Assembly (NCBI GenBank): GCA_022824735.1 | Contig: JAJDZI010000063.1 | Location: 1-45,688, forward strand | DNA: 45,688 nucleotides | Origin: Nitrospirales bacterium | Lineage (GTDB): Bacteria > Nitrospirota > Nitrospiria > Nitrospirales > UBA8639 | Reading direction: 5' to 3' | The notes under the pieces: generated by a model | Told to the model about the DNA's origin: nothing | Seen by the model: only the letters and a program-made list of their open reading frames with translations | The model's database searches: none | In this document: positions 33,418-34,562 of the stretch, in pieces | Position numbering within the stretch: position 1 is the first letter of the stretch | Layout of the letters: the number at the start of each line of letters is the position of its first letter | Made by a program: the position numbers and the translations under genes

Positions 33418-33435
33418 ACGCCCGCGGGCGTTTTT
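33418..33435 (+). terminator. Possible Rho-independent terminator after the enoyl reductase gene
   Basis: The palindrome ACGCCCGCGGGCGT (33418-33431) runs into TTTTT. The stem is short (5 bp with a 4-base loop), so termination may be partial. It lies just after the stop at 33411 and before the MITE-like element and fabD. Confidence 0.45.
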
Positions 33436-33481
33436 ATCCGTTGACTTTCCCGACGGTTTCACTCATACCTTCCCTATGGGA

Positions 33482-33616
33482 CCTCTGCTTGATTGTGATA
33501 GCGGGATGCAGGGCAAGGCGTCCCGGAGCGAAACCCGAGGCTTATCAAACGAGATAGGTGGGGGTTGAGCGAGGACACAACGCAGCCCTGCGCCCGATCG
33601 TGCAATCAATCAGAGG
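33482..33616. mobile_element. MITE-like 135-bp imperfect inverted-repeat element upstream of fabD
   Basis: The left end CCTCTGCTTGATTGTGATAGCGGGATGCAGGGC and the right end, read on the minus strand, CCTCTGATTGATTGCACGATCGGGCGCAGGGC match over about 33 bases with few mismatches. The centre has no coding capacity. GGGA/GGGAG flanks both ends. The size, long terminal inverted repeats and lack of genes fit a miniature inverted-repeat element, or a large structured RNA. It ends 10 bases before the fabD ATG, and its terminal AGAGG is the only ribosome-site-like sequence there. Confidence 0.6.
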
Positions 33617-33626
33617 CTCCCTGTCT

Positions 33627-34562
33627 ATGTCCGACCCAATCGCATTCCTATTCCCCGGTCAAGGTTCGCAGGCCGTCGGGATGGGGCAAGCGTGGCGTGA
33701 GGCATATCCGCAGCTCATGGCCTTGTTTGAGGAGGCCAACTCAATCCTGGGGTATGACCTTCAGGCCCTGTGTTTTGAGGGACCGGCAGAACAACTCAAT
33801 CGAACGGAATATACCCAACCCGCGTTGCTGGTAACCAGCCTTGTTGCTTGGCGGGCCTTGGGTCCGCGCCTCCAGCCTGCTGCGGTGGCGGGACATAGTT
33901 TGGGCGAATATTCGGCCATCGTGGCCGCGGGCGGGCTTTCGTTTCCGGACGCCGTCGCATTGGTCCACAAACGGGCGCGATACATGGAAGAGGCAGTCCC
34001 GTCAGGGAGCGGGTTGGTCGTGGCCCTGCTCGGGTTGGCAGGCGAAGTCGTCAAGGACATTTGTCGTGAGGCTCAATCCGTGGGCGTCGTGGGCGCGGCG
34101 AATTTCAACTCTCCGGGTCAGGTGGTGATCGCGGGCGAAAAAGCCGCGGTGGAACGGGCGATCGAATTGGCCAAAGTGCAAGGGTGCCGGAAATCCATGC
34201 CATTGCCCGTGAGCGTACCGGTTCATACGTCCTTGATGCAGCCGGCCGCGGACCGGCTGGCCCCGCACGTTCACGCGGTGCCACTCTCCGATTTGACCGT
34301 GCCGCTCTTTAACAACGTTGAGGCGCGTCCATTGGTCCGCGCCGAAGAAGTGCGCCGTTCCCTGATTCGCCAGCTCCCTTCCTCCGTGTTATGGGAGCAT
34401 ACGATTCGCGCGATGTGGGAGCAGGGGATTCGGGCGTTTATCGAGATCGGGCCGGGGATGGTGTTGACCCGTGTCGCCAAGCGTATTGTGCCGGAGGCGG
34501 AATTACATCATATTCAGGATCCGGGCTCCTTGGAAAAGACCTTGACGACCCTACGTCGTTGA
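33627..34562 (+). CDS. fabD: Malonyl-CoA:ACP transacylase FabD
   Basis: Loads malonyl groups onto ACP. ATG 33627 gives MSDPIAFLFPGQGSQAVGMGQAW and 311 residues; the longer tracked start reads through the inverted-repeat element and is rejected. The nucleophile elbow is GHSLGEYSA with Ser91. VPVHTSLMQPAA carries the catalytic histidine, and IEIGPGMVLTRVAKRI is near the C terminus. It is followed 41 bases later by fabG. Confidence 0.95.
   Translation: MSDPIAFLFPGQGSQAVGMGQAWREAYPQLMALFEEANSILGYDLQALCFEGPAEQLNRTEYTQPALLVTSLVAWRALGPRLQPAAVAGHSLGEYSAIVAAGGLSFPDAVALVHKRARYMEEAVPSGSGLVVALLGLAGEVVKDICREAQSVGVVGAANFNSPGQVVIAGEKAAVERAIELAKVQGCRKSMPLPVSVPVHTSLMQPAADRLAPHVHAVPLSDLTVPLFNNVEARPLVRAEEVRRSLIRQLPSSVLWEHTIRAMWEQGIRAFIEIGPGMVLTRVAKRIVPEAELHHIQDPGSLEKTLTTLRR

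Follow-up and report, generated by a model that had tools for sequence, protein, structure and literature searches.

A genus-restricted MITE, probably moved by an IS5-family transposase, separates fabD from a promoter-like block in a Nitrospirales bacterium

Prokaryotic MITEs, including the Correia elements and QMITE2, are small and non-coding, with inverted ends and target duplications; they are extragenic, form hairpins in transcripts and in some cases lie immediately upstream of genes (PMC10969869), a description that also fits the element reported here. MITEAba12 of Acinetobacter is likewise an IS-derived, non-autonomous element present in many copies, and has been discussed for putative promoters in a text that deals with neither ribosome sites nor IS5 (PMC6382973). 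IS5-family insertion sequences (NF033581) resemble our element in their ends (GGAAYCTCTGATT) and in their 4-bp A/T-rich duplication; the IS5-family element in the same genome encodes a DDE transposase, whereas the MITE lacks such a gene and has a core unrelated to the IS. For bacterial leaderless genes, which become relevant through the gene next to the element, the published criterion is a TANNNT box some 12 bp ahead of the start codon together with the lack of a Shine-Dalgarno site (PMC3160421).

The window, that is, the whole 45,688-nucleotide stretch of DNA that was analysed, belongs to contig C118 of a Nitrospirales genome (G000; 2.3 Mb, 98% complete). Upstream of fabD it contains a 143-bp sequence that we read, with a probability of roughly 0.93, as one copy of a non-autonomous MITE from a mobile family. 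The Correia elements, QMITE2 and other MITEs differ from it in ends, sizes and transposase families; judged by sequence, the family appears to be new and its kind known, that of an IS5-driven MITE. Its parts are the following:

33474–33477, no strand: left 4-bp target duplication, CTAT (sequence, congener comparison)
33478–33620, no strand: whole MITE copy, 143 bp, without a transposase gene
33478–33495, + strand: left terminal inverted repeat, GGGACCTCTGCTTGATTG (alignment of copies)
33496–33602, no strand: element core, forming an imperfect hairpin and well conserved among family members (folding, copy alignment)
33603–33620, − strand: right terminal inverted repeat, reading GGAGCCTCTGATTGATTG on the − strand (alignment of copies)
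33621–33624, no strand: right target duplication, CTGT (CTAT in G012; congener comparison)

An alignment of 30 copies in the source genome fixed the ends at 33478 and 33620. An earlier sequence-only reading had proposed a 135-bp MITE-like inverted repeat at 33482–33616; the location was right, and the true ends lie a few bases further out. Its description of the repeats as imperfect and about 33 bp long was fair, the terminal repeat proper being 18 bp and the complementarity of the arms running inward to ~40 bp. The inverted repeat itself is real: the strand preceding fabD folds at −77.2 kcal/mol, as against −54.6 ± 4 kcal/mol for shuffled sequences (z −5.6; none of 200 as good). The ends of the fabD-site copy read GGGACCTCTG...CAGAGGCTCC, where the family consensus has GGAACCTCTGAT...; the consensus derived from 108 copies with two short ends is 142 bp long and has perfect 18-bp ends, with GGAACCTCTGATTTATTG at both. 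Elements measure either 142–143 bp or, with one long end, 169–170 bp, a second end type with an additional 27 bp (GGAACCTCTGATCCCCGATTAAGAACGTCGAGGACATG) being found at the left or the right in some copies. Each end carries an outward-pointing AGAGG. By inspection the consensus core is G+C-rich, unlike MITEs in general, which are typically AT-rich (review PMC10969869); A-T richness is a common but not a defining trait of MITEs.

A search of the source genome returned at least 41 matches, the full-length ones at ~90% identity or more, and the core pattern occurs there in 28 + 22 copies (~50), with 0 for the reversed-pattern control. The element is present in 11 of the 14 genomes of the genus (G000 included), at 3–130 copies each with the maximum of 130 in G009, and the three element-free congeners group together in the fabD tree. 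None of the 382 other genomes of the phylum carries it, and none was found in plasmids, phages or viral contigs. The family is thus genus-restricted, dispersed and multicopy. Named records that bear it are Nitrospira or Nitrospirales MAGs, such as RHO3_bin_20, SB0677_bin_15, SB0662_bin_26 and bin75; going by isolate names alone, the element-bearing lineages look marine and host-associated. A search of the open literature found no paper linking the genus with MITEs. In G009 many contigs have matches at positions 30–55, and in these assemblies many contig ends fall inside or beside the element, so the repeat probably tends to break them. On another contig of the source genome (G000:C55), two copies stand almost head to tail (L012:3–61 and 70–214), one of them clipped by the contig end.

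Mobility is further indicated by the flanks. Exact 4-bp duplications border 72 of 148 distinct two-ended copies, where re-pairing of the flanks gives an expectation of 5.1 and a largest re-paired count of 11; 5-bp flank matches occur at a single copy of the 148. The duplicated target is TTAA-like, with T-T-A-A preferred. At the fabD site, CTAT/CTGT matches at three of four positions in G000, and CTAT/CTAT is perfect in G012. This site is filled in these two genomes only, at the same base and in the same orientation, and is empty in the other 12 of the 14. The locus therefore departs from the pattern named beforehand as telling against a MITE, a single copy conserved in place; the element is instead short, lacks a transposase gene, has inverted ends, and shows dispersed copies, a duplication of fixed length and empty sites, and the MITE interpretation of the sequence-only reading is borne out.

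Genes around the copies were called on extracted loci by a custom gene finder, which placed the fabD start wrongly inside the element, so that distances to starts are approximate. None of the 136 placeable copies lies inside an open reading frame; 75 occupy tandem, 38 convergent and 23 divergent gaps, at a median of 6 bp from the neighbouring stop and 38 bp from the neighbouring start. Ends that face a start are of two sorts. Some copies lie upstream of a native Shine-Dalgarno site that is still intact; others lie 2–12 nt from the ATG (starts approximate), and in these the element's own ...CAGAGGTTCC occupies the Shine-Dalgarno place.

Turning to the source of transposition, a single DDE_Tnp_1 gene was found in G000; it lies within an IS5-family element of 1.16 kb and encodes a transposase of 313 aa (NF033581, E 7e-95). 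This IS5-type element starts with GGAATCTCTGATTAAGTC and ends with GACTTAATCAGAGGTTCC, its ends also being given as GGAAYCTCTGATTAAGTC, and the terminal 13 bp, GGAACCTCTGATT, are common to it and the MITE. An intact copy in G009 has TTTA/TTTA flanks, and TTTA also recurs among the MITE duplications. In that genome, which combines the intact IS with the most MITEs, the element ends among those listed are mostly GGAACCTCTGATTAAGTG, identical to the IS end at 17 of 18 positions. Because of this shared terminal sequence and the same type of 4-bp duplication made by the intact congeneric copy, the MITE has probably been moved, now or formerly, by an IS5-family transposase. Only the ends match, however: in the own-genome search the core had no match on the contig carrying the IS5-type element (G000:C37), and the homologous interior of an internal-deletion derivative is missing. 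The transposase gene was found in two of the 11 element-bearing genomes (G000 and G009) and nowhere else in the genus, so in the others the source has been lost, is missing from the assembly or is a different one.

Several loci illustrate further rearrangements of these ends. At L056:1501–1696 (G000:C93:28041–28236), a MITE with two long ends borders an IS5-type copy that has decayed and contains in-frame stops; the MITE has apparently taken the place of that copy's left end. A 27-bp palindrome, GGAACCTCTGATTTAATCAGAGGTTCC, occurs at G000:C54:4856–4882 and at L098:2723–2749 (with GGGGTTCC at the right end of the L098 copy) and consists of two element ends fused without a core, possibly a minimal mobile hairpin. 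From L070:5847 onward, another type of element has the same long end (GGAACCTCTGATCCCCGATTAAGAA...) and a different inner sequence; several kinds of MITE may share these long ends.

The genes around the insertion encode FabH, a FabI/FabL-like SDR enoyl reductase, FabD (TIGR00128) and a FabG-like SDR, which upholds the identities first given for FabH, the enoyl reductase and FabD. Three features define the fabD site:

33422–33439 (approximate), + strand: terminator-like hairpin and T run (ACGCCCGCGGGCGTTTTT) after the enoyl-reductase gene (sequence)
33443–33471, + strand: fabD promoter-like block, TTGACT followed by CATACC after 17 nt or by TACCTT (33466–33471) after 19 nt
33627–34562, + strand: fabD, malonyl-CoA:ACP transacylase, 311 aa (gene and domain calls)

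The short terminator reported earlier is present and its hairpin is kept in congeners, with a two-sided change in G001 (CACCCGCGGGTG; CACCC/GGGTG), although it falls below threshold in a consensus scan. Since this hairpin and T run end the upstream gene, a separate fabD promoter is plausible. The promoter-like block is conserved in most congeners and recurs, as TTGAC...CATATCTTA, in several further genera of the family; in every case it lies shortly before the ATG. A strict sigma-70 scan found no promoter at the conserved block, and we infer from its conservation that it is fabD's own promoter. Both the TTGAC...CATA(C/T)CTTA block and its short distance from the ATG are conserved, and a Shine-Dalgarno site is lacking; a typical empty site, as in G005, reads TTGACTTTCCC(G)GCGGTTTCACTCATACCTTAACTGCCTATG. 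TACCTT or TATCTT lies 13–14 bp before the ATG, again with no Shine-Dalgarno site, in most of the congeners and in several genera besides. The empty sites thus match the published leaderless signature (PMC3160421) as a prediction, and because a TANNNT box stands just before an ATG that has no Shine-Dalgarno site, fabD is probably leaderless in these relatives.

In G000 the element is inserted exactly between the promoter-like block and the fabD ATG (33627), which lies 6 nt past the last element base; the separation of fabD from its own block had escaped the earlier reading. Two further features bear on how the gene might then be expressed:

33612–33616, + strand: AGAGG in the right end, 10 nt from the ATG and the sole Shine-Dalgarno-like stretch upstream of fabD
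33476–33568, + strand: speculative 30-codon open frame, not in frame with fabD, whose ATG is formed by the CTAT duplication and the first element base

A transcript starting from the conserved block would have its 5′ end near 33476 and include the entire element, so that the fabD mRNA would gain a ~150-nt leader folding into one long hairpin (predicted at −73 to −81 kcal/mol). Read-through from the upstream genes would also yield a fabD leader, and a consensus scan of the region found no outward promoter inside the element. The spacing of 10 bases to the ATG that had been assigned to the element end proves to be that of the GAGG in its right end. That the element supplies the ribosome site, as also claimed, is plausible, its AGAGG being the only Shine-Dalgarno-like stretch here and such a stretch being absent from most empty fabD sites; in the whole leader, however, every base of AGAGG is predicted to be paired (P(unpaired) 0.00, rising to 0.32 with the left arm removed). 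Ribosome loading would then depend on a site exposed only when the hairpin is open. We give about an even chance to the proposal, built on these predictions, that the insertion turns a leaderless fabD start into a hairpin-leadered one with a gated ribosome site. The same anatomy would also fit a buried Shine-Dalgarno site with reduced translation, or initiation by another route.

The open frame invites a more specific and improbable version of this proposal. Its new ATG at 33476, also present in G012, is 10 nt downstream of the T that opens TACCTT. A single insertion might have created a translation-gated leader, in which ribosomes starting on the new leaderless frame travel up the left arm and past the tip, open the hairpin and free AGAGG; fabD output would then track leaderless initiation at the 33476 frame. 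Coupled with this, and just as tentative, is the idea that copies landing 2–12 nt before a start codon bring their own ribosome site, since their ends point AGAGG outward.

Other accounts of the locus concern both its identity and its effect. One account makes the sequence a conserved structured RNA leader of the gene itself, a riboswitch or attenuator regulating fabD, and not a member of a mobile family. It would explain the very stable fold, and it gains from the covariation check suggested with the sequence-only reading, in which the arms do co-vary (37 paired two-sided changes, against a mean of 7.1 and a largest value of 16 in shuffles). We reject this account as very unlikely: the sequence is absent before fabD in 12 of the 14 genomes, ~50 other genomic sites carry the sequence, target duplications flank the copies, and an Rfam search of the element gave no family above the gathering score. 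Nor do we accept co-variation as proof of an RNA function, because part of it comes from subfamilies, for example in G009, that changed at both ends jointly. Across the 18-bp arms of the 108 copies, rare changes shared by both arms (for example, TTTCATG on both sides) are likewise above chance; subfamilies explain part of them, and arm-templated correction may account for the rest. Still less credible is a REP/BIME-type palindrome mobilised by a single-strand transposase of the TnpA-REP (RAYT) type, although such a repeat would share the hairpin, the extragenic placement and the high copy number. REP elements are not known for target duplications or long inverted ends, and here the duplications are exact 4-bp ones and the long inverted ends are common to an element with a DDE transposase.

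If the stretch is a MITE copy, as we hold, it might still be neutral at fabD, with expression driven mainly by read-through or by an initiation route indifferent to the element, and with control unchanged. We consider such neutrality conceivable but on balance doubtful. That no placeable copy interrupts an open reading frame suggests that tolerated positions survive, fabD lies within a fatty-acid gene cluster on one strand, and the right-end ribosome site could keep translation going; yet the insertion parts a block conserved across genera from the start codon, and a leader that folds this stably (−73 to −81 kcal/mol) probably has some effect. A separate question is whether G000 and G012 share one inherited insertion or acquired two at the same site. 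Two independent events are a possibility that we set somewhat below even, and they would suit the copies themselves, that of G012 differing from the family consensus at 2 positions beside a perfect duplication and that of G000 at 10 beside a decayed one, as well as a fabD tree that does not resolve the five closest species. Against them stand the identical base, orientation and CTAT left flank, and gene conversion of a single copy would look alike.

The repeat marks a genus of Nitrospira-like, apparently marine bacteria. With a dozen empty-site relatives for comparison, the fabD locus offers a clear natural case in which a mobile element has parted a conserved promoter-like block from the start codon that follows it, in a fatty-acid gene that is expected to be essential. 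Should fabD indeed be leaderless at the empty sites, the insertion would amount to a directly testable change, made in nature, from leaderless translation to translation with a leader.
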